Of a stretch of 35,122 nucleotides of DNA, positions 27,937 through 33,951 are shown in pieces. The position numbers were made by a program, and so were the translations under genes. Each line of letters starts with the position of its first letter. The first letter of the stretch is position 1. The notes under the pieces were generated by a model. That model was given only the letters and a program-made list of their open reading frames with translations. It had not been told where the DNA came from and searched no databases. The DNA is from Sulfurimonas sp. (GTDB taxonomy: Bacteria > Campylobacterota > Campylobacteria > Campylobacterales > Sulfurimonadaceae): positions 1 through 35,122 of the forward strand of contig WFNM01000020.1 in assembly GCA_015488615.1 (NCBI GenBank). Reading direction: 5' to 3'.

Positions 27937-29142
27937 ATGGGTTTTTTTACAAAAAAAGAAGATAAATACAATTTTGATTTTGTTGCTATTGAGATACAAA
28001 GCATACTTAAAGATACAAGTATGGTTGTGTTTGATAAAGAAAAAGATATTTTACAACAAGGAAATATGGAAGAGAAGATTAAAACACTTTTCGCCATTAA
28101 GGATAGAGAGATTTTCTACTGGGAAGAGTTTAAAAGAACTTATCCTGTAGGAATGTTTTCAGTAACACCTGAGAGAAAGTTTCTTGAGTGGAACTCTACT
28201 TTTGCATCTTTAGTTGGATGGAATGACCAAGAGCTAGGTATTGCAAGTGGAGCGGGTAAAGTACTTTGGCCTTCTAAACCATCAGAGTGCCAAGTCTGTA
28301 AACTAGTCAAACAATTTGATATGAATGAGAAAAAAGCGGGTTATGGTACTGCTAATGTTGAAGATAAACATGGCACTATTATCCCTGTTTATGTCTATAT
28401 CATCCCTGTATTTATAAAAAATAAACTCGATAGAACTTTTGTAATTATACGAGATAGACGCGAAGAGATTGCTAACAGAAAAAGCTTTTTAGCACAAGAG
28501 ACCGCACCTATTATTGGGAGACTTCAAAGACTTCAAGAAAAAGACATTGCAGAACTTATACAACTCAGTGATGACTCTGAACTTAAAGCACTCGAAAACC
28601 CTATAAATGCCATTATCACAACACTACAAGATATAGTAAATCAAATAGACTCTTCAACAAATGATGTAGATACAGAATCCAGACAAACGAAAGATATAGT
28701 GGATGCTTCTGTTGCATGGGCTTCTGGAGATTTTCAAGAGACACAAAGTGCACTAGTTGAGCGAGCACGATCTCTTGAATCTTCAACAAATGAGATAGAA
28801 AATATGGTTGGTCTTATCAAAGATATCGCAGATCAGACGAATCTACTTGCACTAAATGCGGCAATTGAAGCTGCACGAGCTGGAGAGCATGGTCGAGGTT
28901 TTGCAGTTGTTGCAGATGAAGTACGTAAACTCGCCGAACGTAGCCAGCATGCAACCACAGAGATAACTTCTACTATTTCAGTGATTAAAGATGCTACTTT
29001 TTCTATGGTTGCCGATATTGATCAATCAAACAAAGATAGTGAAAAGCTTGTAGGTGAACTCTCTAAAATTAGTGCAAATGTAGACAGTATTGAAAATCAC
29101 ATCTACACACTTAAAGATGCAGTACAAGGATTTAAATTATAA
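27937..29142 (+). CDS. Cytosolic PAS-containing methyl-accepting chemotaxis protein
   Basis: A 401-residue soluble chemoreceptor. Residues about 68-175 are a PAS domain ([15 protein letters not shown], ending [10 protein letters not shown]) with an unusual C118xxC121 pair in SECQVCKL that could bind metal or form a disulfide. Helices follow, then a short signalling domain with the invariant tip (about 297-335: [18 protein letters not shown] and [12 protein letters not shown]). There is no membrane segment or methylation-site hairpin of full length. I chose the ATG at 27937, with AGGA nine bases upstream, over the in-frame TTG at 27874, which sits among -10-like TATAAT sequences (27857-27862, 27883-27888). 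The stop is one base before the next gene, so it heads a three-gene unit. Confidence 0.9.
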
Positions 29143-29143
29143 T

Positions 29144-29605
29144 ATGGCTGAAATTTTAGAAGGAATGAGTAAAGATGTCATTATGCATCTTATGAATCCA
29201 CACAACTACGGAAAACTAGAGAATCCTACTTGTATAGGGATAGCAACAGATGAGAAAACTGGAGAGTATGTTATCTTTTATACACTCCGTGAAGATGATA
29301 CTATCAAGGATGTGAAGTTTGCCACAAATGGCTGCCAAGACACAGTAGTCATAGGATCAATGTACACAGATATGATAATGGGTGAGAGCATTGAGTATGC
29401 TCACTCTGCTTTAGGGAAGATAAAAGAGAAACTCGGTGTTATGACAAAACAGCAGCAGATTTGTGCAGAGATAGTTCTCAATGCTTTTGTAGCATCTATG
29501 ATAAACTTTGACAACCTTGCAGAGGGTAAAGAGGAAGAAGCACACATCATCAAGATGACAGAGAGTTGCGAAATAAAAGAAGAGGAAATAATAGATGAAC
29601 AGTAG
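29144..29605 (+). CDS. IscU/NifU-N-like iron-sulfur scaffold protein
   Basis: A 153-residue soluble protein resembling the U-type Fe-S scaffold. Matching features are NPHNYGKLENP at 18-28 (HP.N.G in IscU), KFATNGCQDTVV with C64 and QQQICAEIVL with C107. The first scaffold cysteine, in the CGD loop of IscU, is replaced here (KTGEY, 38-42), leaving two of three cluster cysteines, so classical scaffold activity is doubtful. The Lys of the K.HC-type motif is also not conserved. The C-terminus is an acidic tail. I chose the ATG at 29144, one base after the chemoreceptor stop, over an ATG at 29090 inside the receptor gene. It overlaps the next gene by 11 bases. Confidence 0.75.
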   Translation: MAEILEGMSKDVIMHLMNPHNYGKLENPTCIGIATDEKTGEYVIFYTLREDDTIKDVKFATNGCQDTVVIGSMYTDMIMGESIEYAHSALGKIKEKLGVMTKQQQICAEIVLNAFVASMINFDNLAEGKEEEAHIIKMTESCEIKEEEIIDEQ

Positions 29606-30416
29606 TATTTACCAAGCCAAACATGAACTTTACCTAAGTATAACTTTTGCCTCTTTTGCCATCAAAGATGAGGCAATAAGTTCAAGACTTTATGAGTTTT
29701 CACTCATCGCGTTTCGCCATATGAAGTGGATAGGTGAAGCTATCTTAGCGGATGGTGGCGACTATAACTACGATAGAGATATGACTCTATATAAACGCGA
29801 GAGTACATTTGAGATACTTAAAGCTTTGGTTGTTGAGATAGAAGCATTTCAAAAAACGACAACAGATTCCATCCTCTCTCAAAGAATAAAAACAGATGAT
29901 GAGTATCTCTTAACTTACCTCTCTTCTCTTTTGTGTGATAAGACAAATGACCAAGAAGTGACTGCGTTTAACATGCAGAGAAAATGGCTAGATAAGAACC
30001 TCGACCAAGATCAAATTGATGCACTAACTCTCTTTTTGTTTGAAGAGTCTTACAAGGAATATGAGCTTATACTTGTCTATGCCTACATGCAAACGCGAAC
30101 AAAAAATGCTCTAGAGTTTAATGTCTTTGAAGACCTCATAGCAGAGTCACACTTTCACCTCAAATCTTTTGGAAATATGATGTCAGTTATGGGCATACTA
30201 GCCCTTCCTCGTGAGCTTCATGAGATGACTTACATCGTTAAAGATTTAGAAAAATTTGTTACAGATGGCATCGCTGAAGAAGAAGCTGCAAAAGTAATGT
30301 GCAAAGAGCTTAGTGACTCTATAAAAGATGAAGAACTCTCTAAATTTTTTGACTTTATCAACTACCAAGAGAGCTACCATATTGAACTCATGAAGAAACT
30401 CCTAAACAATAAATAG
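29595..30416 (+). CDS. Predicted ferritin-like helical protein
   Basis: An all-helical soluble protein of 273 residues that looks like two four-helix units in tandem. In the second unit the helices carry acidic or histidine residues where a di-iron site would be: E150/E151, E184 with H186/H188, E220 and the clean ExxH of E259-H262 (YQESYH). The first unit is degenerate, with H42 and E48 in RHMKWIGE. This suggests a rubrerythrin- or ferritin-like fold, but I cannot name a family and the metal site is inference. It is translationally coupled to the IscU-like gene by an 11-base overlap and ends about 120 bases before nuoA. Confidence 0.55.
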   Translation: MNSSIYQAKHELYLSITFASFAIKDEAISSRLYEFSLIAFRHMKWIGEAILADGGDYNYDRDMTLYKRESTFEILKALVVEIEAFQKTTTDSILSQRIKTDDEYLLTYLSSLLCDKTNDQEVTAFNMQRKWLDKNLDQDQIDALTLFLFEESYKEYELILVYAYMQTRTKNALEFNVFEDLIAESHFHLKSFGNMMSVMGILALPRELHEMTYIVKDLEKFVTDGIAEEEAAKVMCKELSDSIKDEELSKFFDFINYQESYHIELMKKLLNNK

Positions 30417-30491: not shown

Positions 30492-30545
30492 ATGGAAAAT
30501 ATAAACTATGATATTTTAATCAAAAGAGACAACTCAAATGATTGA
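30492..30545 (+). CDS. Possible 17-residue leader peptide upstream of nuoA
   Basis: A short frame (MENINYDILIKRDNSND) with a well-placed AAGGA eight bases before its ATG. Its stop TGA lies 3 bases past the nuoA ATG, so the two overlap by 8 bases, as in coupled translation. nuoA itself has no strong ribosome binding site, which would make this leader useful for initiation. The peptide shows no run of one amino acid, so classic attenuation is unlikely. It may be accidental. Confidence 0.35.
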   Translation: MENINYDILIKRDNSND

Positions 30546-30888
30546 AACCTTTTTTCTCTATGCTCTCTTTGTAGCAATTGCTGTTTTTTTACTTTACTTT
30601 TTAGGAGTAGCTCTAGCTCCTTATGCCCCTAACCGTGTAAAAAATGAACACTTTGAGTGTGGACTTCCAGCCTCTTCATCGACTCCAAAAAAAGCAAACT
30701 TTGGCTTTTTTGTTTATGCAATTATGTTTATAGTTGCAGATATGACGGGACTTTTTTTCTCACTTTTTGTCTTTGGACTTGACAGACATGCTTCACTAAT
30801 AGCAAGTGCTTTCGCACTCATCATGGCTCTTTCTATCACACTCGCAATGCACGAACTTCAAAAAGAAAACAAGGAAAACAATGCTTAA
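30538..30888 (+). CDS. nuoA: NADH-quinone oxidoreductase subunit A
   Basis: A 116-residue membrane subunit of respiratory complex I with three helices. The conserved loop NEHFECGLPASS carries the glutamate and cysteine found in NuoA near the quinone site. It opens the cluster and overlaps nuoB by 8 bases. The short frame at 30492-30545 may couple its translation. Confidence 0.93.
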   Translation: MIETFFLYALFVAIAVFLLYFLGVALAPYAPNRVKNEHFECGLPASSSTPKKANFGFFVYAIMFIVADMTGLFFSLFVFGLDRHASLIASAFALIMALSITLAMHELQKENKENNA

Positions 30889-31354
30889 AATACTCGACTT
30901 TTTTGACTATGCCAAGAGTGAATCTCTCTGGATGGCACACTTCTGTACAGGATGCTGTTCTTTAGAGATGGCAGCAGCGATGGGGCCGCGTTATGACTGG
31001 GAACGTTATGGCTACCTCCCAACACCAACGCCAAGACAGGCTGATGTTCTTATGATAACAGGTTTAGTAAGCAAGAAAATACTCCCCGCACTGCTAAGAA
31101 CCTATGCACAGATGCCTGAACCTAAGTATGTAGTCGCTATGGGTGCTTGCTCTTTTGATGGTGGACCTTATAACGAGTCACTTTCAGTTATCAAAAATCC
31201 TACAGAGATTCTCCCTGCTGATGTTTTCATCGCTGGGTGTCCTCCTAAACCTGAAGCTATTATAGAGGGTTTAGAGCAAGTCAAACAGAAGATTAAAAAT
31301 GGCGAACCAAGTGCAGCAAGCCAAGGTGGTCTTTGGAAAGAGATGGATTTTTAG
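30881..31354 (+). CDS. nuoB: NADH-quinone oxidoreductase subunit B
   Basis: A 157-residue peripheral subunit that holds the N2 iron-sulfur cluster next to the quinone pocket. The four ligands are visible: the double cysteine in CTGCCSLE, one in GACSFDGGPY and one in GCPPKPEA. I chose the ATG at 30881, preceded by AAGGA and opening MLKILDFFDYAKS, because the family begins about here; an upstream in-frame ATG lies inside nuoA. It ends directly against the nuoCD start. Confidence 0.95.
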   Translation: MLKILDFFDYAKSESLWMAHFCTGCCSLEMAAAMGPRYDWERYGYLPTPTPRQADVLMITGLVSKKILPALLRTYAQMPEPKYVVAMGACSFDGGPYNESLSVIKNPTEILPADVFIAGCPPKPEAIIEGLEQVKQKIKNGEPSAASQGGLWKEMDF

Positions 31355-32998
31355 ATGAATAATGTACGTAAAATAGTAGAAGAGTTCTCTTGCGAATATG
31401 TTGAGGATTATAAAAAAATATGGCTCAAAGCAAAACTTAACTCTAAAAATGATTTGTTAGCACTTGCACAAGCTCTCAAAAAAGAGGGGCTTCGTTCACT
31501 CTCTACAGTATCGCCTACAGACTTCTTAGAAGAGAATATCATGGAGCTAAACTACTTTTTTGAAGATTTAGAGACTAAACGCAACCTTTGGCTTAAAGTT
31601 AATCTTCCTCGTGAGAGTGAGGGATGTAAGATAGAGTCACTAACACCTCTCTTTCCTAGTGCAAATTGGCATGAGAGAGAAGCTTTTTCGATGTACGGTG
31701 TGGAGTTTTTAAATCATCCAGACCTTAGAGAAATCATCAAAAGTGAAGATTTTAAAGGTGTGTACCCTTTTAGAAAAGATTTTGATTGGGATGCTCATGA
31801 GAAAAATCAAGTGCAAAATGTCCAGCAGATTGTAGATGCCTTTAAAAAAGAGCAGGAAGAAAATGAGCTAGAGTTAGACTCGGACTCTTCTGAGAGTATC
31901 CTCAACTGGGGACCAACGCACCCAGCAAGTGGACCCATCCGTCTTCGTGTTCATTGTGATGGCGAAGATATAATCAGCATAGACCCTGACATCGGTTATG
32001 TCTGGCGTGCCTTGGAGCATTTAGTAGAGAAAAAAGATTTTGTGGGGGCTATTGTCTCCGTTGAACGTCTCTGTTTTATGGATAACATCAACTCAATGGT
32101 AGGCTACTCTATGGCAGTTGAGGAGATAGCAGGCATAGAGATTACTCCTTTTGCTTCATGGATGCGAGTTCTGCTCGGTGAAGTGGCACGAGTCTCTTCA
32201 CACTTTATGGGTCTTGGTATGTTTTTTAACAACATGGGGCTGCATACTTTAGCGATGTGGAACATGGACACAAGAGAGTTCTTTTTAGACTTTTTAGAGT
32301 CCTACTCAGGAGCGAGAATAGCCACGGCTTCTATTGAACCAGGTGGTGTTCGTTATGGTTTAGATATGAGTATGCTTGATGAACTACAAAAAGCACTTGA
32401 GAAGTTTGATGCGAGTGTTGGTGAAGTTGAAGCCATCTTTGTAAAAAATCCAACGATGAAACTCCGCTCAGACAATGTCGGTATCCTCACAAAAGAGGAA
32501 GTCCATGAGTTTGGTCTCAGTGGTATAGTTGCTCGTGCAAGTGGTGTCAAAACTGACATCCGTATAGATGAACCTTATGCTGCTTATGGTGAGCTTGATT
32601 TAGAGTATATCACACAAGAAAAAGGAAGTGCCAAAGATAGATTTATGATGCTTTTCCGTGATTTAAAACAGTCTGTAAAGATCATCAAACAGGCAAAAGC
32701 ACACATAGAAAAAGCTGTAGCTGATGGTGAGATGAACCCTACAAAAGACCACATGGTGAAGGTACCAAAAAAACTACCAAAAGGTGAAGCAATAAGCCGT
32801 GTTGAGTGGGCAAGAGGCGAAGTGCTTATGCACCTAGTGACAGAGGAAAAAGCCAAGTCTCCTTATCGTTTAAAGATGCGAGCACCAAGTTTTAACCATA
32901 CGATGATGCTTGATCACCTGCTTAAGGGGCAAACACTCTCCGATATTCCACTTATTTTTGGAAGTCTCTATATTTGTCAGGGAGATTTAGATAGATGA
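31355..32998 (+). CDS. nuoCD: NADH-quinone oxidoreductase fused subunit CD
   Basis: A 547-residue fusion. NuoC (about 1-165) shows NWHEREAFSMYGVEF and the HPDLREI...PFRKDFDW end. An acidic linker (about 166-183) joins it to NuoD (about 184-547), with NWGPTHPASGP, IGYVWRALEHLVEKKDF and EPGGVRYGLD lining the quinone cavity beside NuoB. Fused NuoCD is known from E. coli. The next gene is nuoH, by a 4-base ATGA overlap, so nuoE, nuoF and nuoG are not at the position they usually occupy. Confidence 0.95.
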   Translation: MNNVRKIVEEFSCEYVEDYKKIWLKAKLNSKNDLLALAQALKKEGLRSLSTVSPTDFLEENIMELNYFFEDLETKRNLWLKVNLPRESEGCKIESLTPLFPSANWHEREAFSMYGVEFLNHPDLREIIKSEDFKGVYPFRKDFDWDAHEKNQVQNVQQIVDAFKKEQEENELELDSDSSESILNWGPTHPASGPIRLRVHCDGEDIISIDPDIGYVWRALEHLVEKKDFVGAIVSVERLCFMDNINSMVGYSMAVEEIAGIEITPFASWMRVLLGEVARVSSHFMGLGMFFNNMGLHTLAMWNMDTREFFLDFLESYSGARIATASIEPGGVRYGLDMSMLDELQKALEKFDASVGEVEAIFVKNPTMKLRSDNVGILTKEEVHEFGLSGIVARASGVKTDIRIDEPYAAYGELDLEYITQEKGSAKDRFMMLFRDLKQSVKIIKQAKAHIEKAVADGEMNPTKDHMVKVPKKLPKGEAISRVEWARGEVLMHLVTEEKAKSPYRLKMRAPSFNHTMMLDHLLKGQTLSDIPLIFGSLYICQGDLDR

Positions 32999-33951
32999 TA
33001 GACACACTCTTTTCAGCCTTTGTTTTCCCGGGACTTCTTTATGTTTTACTCTGGACTATTGGGCTTTTTTGGTTTTTTAGAAAATTTATGGCGGCCCTGC
33101 ATAAGCGTGTAGGTCCTAGTTTTAACGGAAAGGGAGGAAGTTATCAAACACTTTTTGATTTGAGTAAACTCCTTACCAAAGAGAGCATTACCCCTGATGG
33201 AGTAAATCCTTATCTCTTTTCTATTATGCCACCTCTAGCTCTTATCATCGCTATGCTTCCTGCTGCATTTATACCGTGGATGGATAGCTCTGTGGTAGTA
33301 GATAGCAACTATGGTCTTTTAGCACTTGTTATCCTCATAGGTATTGAGCCATTTTTACTCTTTTTAACAGGTTTTGGCTCAAACAATAAGTACTCGTTTC
33401 TTGGTGGTGTGCGAATACTAACACAGTCTATCTCTATGGAGACAGCGTTTTTCTTAGCAGCACTCTCTCCTGCCCTACTTTTTGGAACGATGAACTTAAC
33501 TGAGATAGTCCAGAGTGGTACTTGGCTAAGCTTTCTTATACTCCTGCCTGGATTTGCTATGTACTTTGTAGCACTCTTAGGTTTACTAGAGCAGCCACCT
33601 TTTAACATTCCAGATGCAGAACAAGAGATAGTGTATGGTTTTTACACAGAGTATAGTGGGACAAACTACTTCTTACTCAAACTTGCAGAGTTTGCAGAAT
33701 TTATGGCTGTTTTTGCAGGGGCAACTACACTTTTTTTAGGAGCCTACAAGGGTATCTTCTTTGATAGTTACTTCTTCTTTTTTATGAAAATGTTGGGTAT
33801 TGCAGTAGCTATGATGACTATTCGTGCGGCAACGCCACGTATTACCTTAGCACAAATGCTCTCTTTTTCGTGGAAATATATGGTACCCCTTGCACTGCTC
33901 AACATCGCATGGGTACTTTTTGCAAAAACACTCTGGTTTATGGGAGCATAG
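32995..33951 (+). CDS. nuoH: NADH-quinone oxidoreductase subunit H
   Basis: A 318-residue membrane subunit with eight helices, forming the mouth of the quinone chamber. Family landmarks are LHKRVGPSFNGKGGSYQ near the start, EQPPFNIPDAEQEIVYGFYTEYSG in the middle (essential glutamates) and IRAATPRITLAQ near the end. It overlaps nuoCD as ATGA and is three bases before nuoI. Confidence 0.96.
   Translation: MIDTLFSAFVFPGLLYVLLWTIGLFWFFRKFMAALHKRVGPSFNGKGGSYQTLFDLSKLLTKESITPDGVNPYLFSIMPPLALIIAMLPAAFIPWMDSSVVVDSNYGLLALVILIGIEPFLLFLTGFGSNNKYSFLGGVRILTQSISMETAFFLAALSPALLFGTMNLTEIVQSGTWLSFLILLPGFAMYFVALLGLLEQPPFNIPDAEQEIVYGFYTEYSGTNYFLLKLAEFAEFMAVFAGATTLFLGAYKGIFFDSYFFFFMKMLGIAVAMMTIRAATPRITLAQMLSFSWKYMVPLALLNIAWVLFAKTLWFMGA

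Follow-up and report, generated by a model that had tools for sequence, protein, structure and literature searches.

The window analysed here, a contig of Sulfurimonas sp. (WFNM01000020.1) with a length of 35,122 nt, contains three consecutive genes on the plus strand, confirmed by translation, which encode a soluble PAS chemoreceptor of 401 residues (positions 27937..29142), a NifU/IscU-like protein of 153 residues (29144..29605) and a ferritin-like protein of 273 residues (29595..30416). A gap of 1 nt separates the receptor gene from the NifU-like gene, which in turn overlaps the ferritin-like gene by 11 nt. These coordinates, spacings and families, all confirmed, are those of an initial annotation of the locus, in which the tight spacing was taken as a sign of one common function and the three products were proposed to form an iron or redox sensor. 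Scans for promoters and terminators returned nothing over the shuffled background. The nuo (Complex I) genes lie at positions 30538-33951, the first of them 122 nt past the ferritin-like gene, a neighbourhood that is peculiar to the window among the loci compared.

The chemoreceptor matches the MCP signalling domain (Pfam MCPsignal, 5e-35) and, weakly, PAS, and displays no strongly hydrophobic 19-residue stretch, which agrees with its earlier description as a soluble PAS receptor with a CxxC pair. This pair, C118xxC121 (28288..28299), lies in the PAS domain as part of an LWPxxPxxCxxC motif that is invariant in 24 homologues, and may be involved in metal binding or act as a thiol switch.

Altered putative metal sites in the NifU-like and ferritin-like proteins

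The NifU-like protein matches NifU_N (5e-14), and its model (pLDDT 89.6) shares the fold of IscU and of the N-terminal domain of NifU, as judged from its superposition with the IscU proteins of Aquifex (2z7e, Z 17.4) and A. fulgidus (4eb5, Z 16.9). Two of the three cluster cysteines of IscU scaffolds are kept, as had been noted from the window alone: Cys64 (29333..29335) and Cys107 (29462..29464), corresponding to the second and third, are invariant in an alignment of 73 sequences. In contrast, the Cys-Gly-Asp of true scaffolds is replaced by Thr39-Gly40-Glu41 (29258..29266), the first cysteine (the Cys37 position) having given way to Thr, Ser or Asn in 73/73 sequences, while an acidic residue is retained at the place of Asp39, in the form of a glutamate in column 41 of all 73. 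The histidine that precedes the third cysteine in scaffolds is also lost (Ile, Val or Ala). The genome of the window encodes NifS and a complete three-domain NifU elsewhere, the latter with CGD at the same positions; the NifU-like protein is therefore an addition to the normal machinery and, since its first cluster cysteine is replaced throughout the alignment, probably does not serve as an ordinary scaffold.

A further cysteine that was absent from the initial annotation, Cys142 (29567..29569), is found in the C-terminal tail, an additional invariant residue by comparison with IscU. It is present in 73/73 sequences and in 112 of the 113 sequences of a wider set that includes paralogues of 180 residues; in the model it borders on a tail of low confidence. 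The fact that these paralogues (L180-L186) have lost Cys64 and Cys107 and kept Cys142 argues for a function of this residue. On the other hand, the tail of Aquifex IscU also has a cysteine, and Cys142 may thus be inherited and need not be a ligand. The 180-residue paralogues of Sulfurimonas (L180:5871-6413, L181:5873-6415, L182:5646-6197 and L186:5636-6184) occur mostly in genomes without the ferritin-like gene and, in these loci, follow a deoxycytidylate deaminase-like gene.

The AlphaFold2 model of the ferritin-like protein (pLDDT 95.8) displays eight main helices arranged in two four-helix bundles, composed of residues 3-22, 26-52, 71-86 and 93-114 and of residues 138-166, 172-198, 218-242 and 246-271, respectively, by which a single four-helix ferritin is ruled out. 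A comparison of the two halves with hhalign, performed for an internal duplication, gave no significant score. The second bundle contains an invariant set of putative ligands of the diiron type, in line with a four-helix metal site in this protein. The residues concerned (30057..30380) were delineated in an alignment of 90 sequences and form the motifs E155-x6-Y162, E184-S185-xx-H188, E229-x6-C236 and E259-xx-H262. Six of them (E155, S185, H188, E229, E259 and H262) are found in 90/90 sequences, down to 23% identity; position 184 is Glu in 87 sequences and Asp in the other 3, and Y162 and C236 are each present in 89/90. Relative to an E-ExxH-E-ExxH arrangement, E155, H188, E229, E259 and H262 are invariant, the helix-2 motif is E184xxxH188, and Ser185 occupies the position that normally belongs to Glu. 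Of the pair of ExxH motifs originally ascribed to the protein, E259xxH262 is thus confirmed, whereas the other is an ExxxH.

The helix-1 E-x6-Y, the helix-3 Glu, the register of the helix-4 ExxH and the fold of the second bundle are common to rubrerythrins and bacterioferritins, from which the ferritin-like protein differs in the shift of the helix-2 motif by one residue, the replacement of the helix-3 Tyr by Cys, the presence of two bundles per chain and the lack of a rubredoxin domain. Indeed, no rubredoxin-type Cys4 iron domain is found in the 273 residues, where Cys236 (30300..30302), another nearly invariant cysteine that had gone unmentioned, is the sole Cys column conserved at 90% or above. 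In an hhalign comparison with the bacterioferritins of relatives, weak in score and collinear, H188 coincides with the ligand His and S185 with the ligand Glu, and in helix 3 E229 falls on the Glu and C236 on the Tyr; scores against both bacterioferritins and rubrerythrins being weak, the exact register of the ligands is tentative.

A profile search of the PDB retrieved one full-length relative, 9viw_A ('Bacterioferritin', 306 residues; E 3.9e-21, over residues 9-270), for which a literature search found no paper. This protein likewise comprises two bundles, the second with an ExxxH motif in helix 2 and an ExxH motif in helix 4, but Tyr stands at the position of Cys236 and the first bundle contains an ExxH, of which most members of the ferritin-like family keep only the His. 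The structural matches listed for the ferritin-like protein are ferritin-like, and its second bundle superposes on Dps, bacterioferritin and related chains with Z about 13-14.5 over 130-140 residues; these values are near the level of ambiguity for helical bundles, so that more weight falls on the residue pattern and on the relationship to 9viw in sequence. With Foldseek alone, the model had no match under 0.05, NCBIfam holds no family for the protein, and the Pfam Rubrerythrin match at its C-terminal end (6e-4) is below the Pfam cut-off. In the first bundle only H42, R97 and D101 are kept, and this half is therefore likely to have no diiron centre of its own. Neither PF00210 nor PF02915 has a match in the genome of the window. 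A role as a replacement for ferritin was ruled out, the presence of the ferritin-like gene being independent of that of PF00210 (46/22 versus 63/29, Fisher p 1.0, 160 genomes).

Conservation of the gene pair and insertion of the chemoreceptor

A pair of searches over one set of 399 genomes from the order Campylobacterales listed 147 places with a ferritin-like gene, which in 115 cases immediately follows a NifU-like match in the same orientation. In three further cases, at least two of them on short contigs, the NifU-like match is located elsewhere. The remaining 29 ferritin-like genes are without a NifU-like match, and most belong to families f13 and f16, whose ferritin-like proteins are the most divergent, the families with the ferritin-like gene alone being at 31-34% identity. 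Such families are represented by L192, L193 and L194, the last of which has a bacterioferritin-type gene a few genes off. Since NifU-like-type genes are in turn present without a ferritin-like gene, neither strictly requires the other. The neighbours around the pair are highly varied, with 33 upstream and 46 downstream types in 85 loci, and its adjacency is therefore not a matter of general synteny: the two genes travel as a unit and are adjacent far beyond chance. Although these counts of genomes lack phylogenetic independence, many families of the order contain the pair. Outside the order, no occurrence was detected in a sample of 298 genomes from the phylum, every match falling within the order, and the pair was not found on plasmids. 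At one locus (L197:4754-9518, genome G102) it lies close to peroxiredoxin and rubrerythrin genes.

The receptor has no such conserved place. With the exception of the window, it does not precede the pair in any of the 80 related contigs found with the ferritin-like protein or in 29 further relatives, in nearly all of which, as far as the contig extends, the ferritin-like gene has the NifU-like gene ahead of it; the arrangement with the receptor is restricted to the genome of the window (G000) and to the sister genome G049, in which a receptor 92% identical to that of the window stands in the order cysS-receptor-NifU-like, followed by the end of the contig. Homologues of the receptor occur in 11 of 99 relatives, where they adjoin unrelated genes at many sites. 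The sister locus L031, whose ferritin-like protein is 90% identical, is the nearest one that has no receptor, and in it the end of cysS overlaps the start of the NifU-like gene, between which the receptor sits in the window. A recurrent position next to nfu was also considered as a meaningful link and rejected. In four Sulfurimonas loci (L200, L202, L203 and L204) the order is alaS, receptor, nfu and a flavin-reductase-like gene, and G049 has a second copy before nfu that is 70% identical to the receptor of the window; this arrangement is an insertion too, because alaS adjoins nfu without a receptor in L256 and L257. The receptor is thus a recent, lineage-specific insertion ahead of an older pair, and was rejected on synteny as part of the system.

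As a consequence, the proposal of a three-gene sensor loses its basis, the receptor being rarely adjacent in relatives. The join between the NifU-like and ferritin-like genes is conserved and that between the receptor and NifU-like genes is not: here the 1-base gap connects a recent insertion to an old pair, a caution against relying on the close packing of genes in a single genome. In the lineage of the window, the inserted receptor may have placed the pair behind its own promoter. The members of this small receptor family are soluble, share the invariant LWPxxPxxCxxC motif in the PAS domain and are inserted at many different places in the chromosomes of the order. Another Campylobacterales locus (L107) has, upstream of the pair and in its orientation, a gene for a PAS-type protein whose C-xx-C motif reads CTWC.

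Possible functions of the pair

The conserved object at this locus is a two-gene module encoding the NifU-like and ferritin-like proteins, and the two probably handle iron together. A dedicated iron-handling pair, in which an IscU-derived metal carrier serves a predicted diiron protein, is tentatively favoured, with metal binding, contact and the direction of transfer all inferred from sequence and models. The ferritin-like protein would bind iron, and then oxidize or buffer it, at the diiron site of the second bundle. The NifU-like protein would no longer be a general scaffold, having become the partner of the ferritin-like protein, and could carry iron (or electrons) between the diiron site and the Fe–S assembly machinery of the cell. 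This reading is supported by the precedent of YtfE from E. coli, a diiron protein that works with IscU: it binds both IscU and IscS and supplies iron to the assembly of clusters, and its authors extend the idea of an iron donor to bacterioferritins (PMC8117158). YtfE/RIC is likewise a helical-bundle diiron protein with a partner of the IscU fold, the metal and the contact being predicted in the case of the pair; it is, however, hemerythrin-like and not ferritin-like, and its partner is a normal IscU instead of a specialized IscU-like protein encoded by the adjacent gene. A more specific version, to which we assign little likelihood, would be a new two-protein relay of iron or sulfur in Campylobacterales, in which the IscU scaffold has been rebuilt, through loss of the first cysteine and gain of Cys142, as the dedicated partner of a ferritin-like diiron protein with a cysteine at its metal site, and iron or persulfide passes between Cys142/Cys107 of the former and the diiron/Cys236 site of the latter.

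The NifU-like protein may instead be a redox partner which, holding a [2Fe-2S] cluster or a mononuclear Cys-ligated iron, would deliver electrons to the diiron site of the ferritin-like protein for the reduction of peroxide or oxygen. Rubredoxin is the electron donor of rubrerythrin, and Bfd that of bacterioferritin, and it is to the rubrerythrin/bacterioferritin type that the helix-1 and helix-4 pattern of the ferritin-like protein conforms; furthermore, Cys236, beside the presumed diiron site, is redox-capable, the NifU-like protein keeps up to three cysteines and one glutamate, and at L197 the pair is near peroxiredoxin and rubrerythrin genes. We consider this role rather doubtful, as the ferritin-like protein is devoid of a rubredoxin domain, IscU-type clusters are labile and, to our knowledge, not known as electron carriers, and the neighbourhoods, apart from that of L197, are random as to oxidative stress genes. 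A function in maturation, with the NifU-like protein loading or repairing the metal site of a ferritin-like protein that is an enzyme outside iron homeostasis, would be in line with the invariably upstream position of the NifU-like gene, with its absence from the families whose ferritin-like proteins have diverged most, and with a helix-2 ExxxH and a helix-3 Cys that are unlike those of iron-storing ferritins. No enzyme partner and no neighbour linked to a substrate is seen repeatedly next to the pair, though, and such a function appears unlikely.

By far the least probable is an intracellular sensor of iron or redox state, linked to chemotaxis, that includes the receptor. The 1-base gap, the invariant CxxC of the PAS domain and the same gene order in G049 could be seen in its favour, but no other locus has the receptor at this place, its family occupies many unrelated sites, the recurrent nfu neighbour is explained by insertion, and in L031 cysS and the NifU-like gene overlap with no receptor between them.

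The pair was not found described in the literature searched, which was largely open-access. Both folds are already known; their fixed combination and the changes at both presumed metal sites seem not to have been described before. Divergent additional IscU-like proteins are themselves known in the phylum, an example being SMUL_1533 from Sulfurospirillum multivorans, which was proposed to mature the dehalogenase PceA (PMC4585668). By its description, SMUL_1533 likewise occurs alongside a normal NifSU, but no ferritin-like partner is mentioned for it (PMC4585668). The physiological iron donor for Fe–S cluster assembly is an open question (PMC8117158), on which the coupling of an IscU fold without cysteine 1 to a diiron-type protein constitutes a natural experiment. 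The two proteins, both small and soluble, stay together in many families of one order amid changing surroundings.
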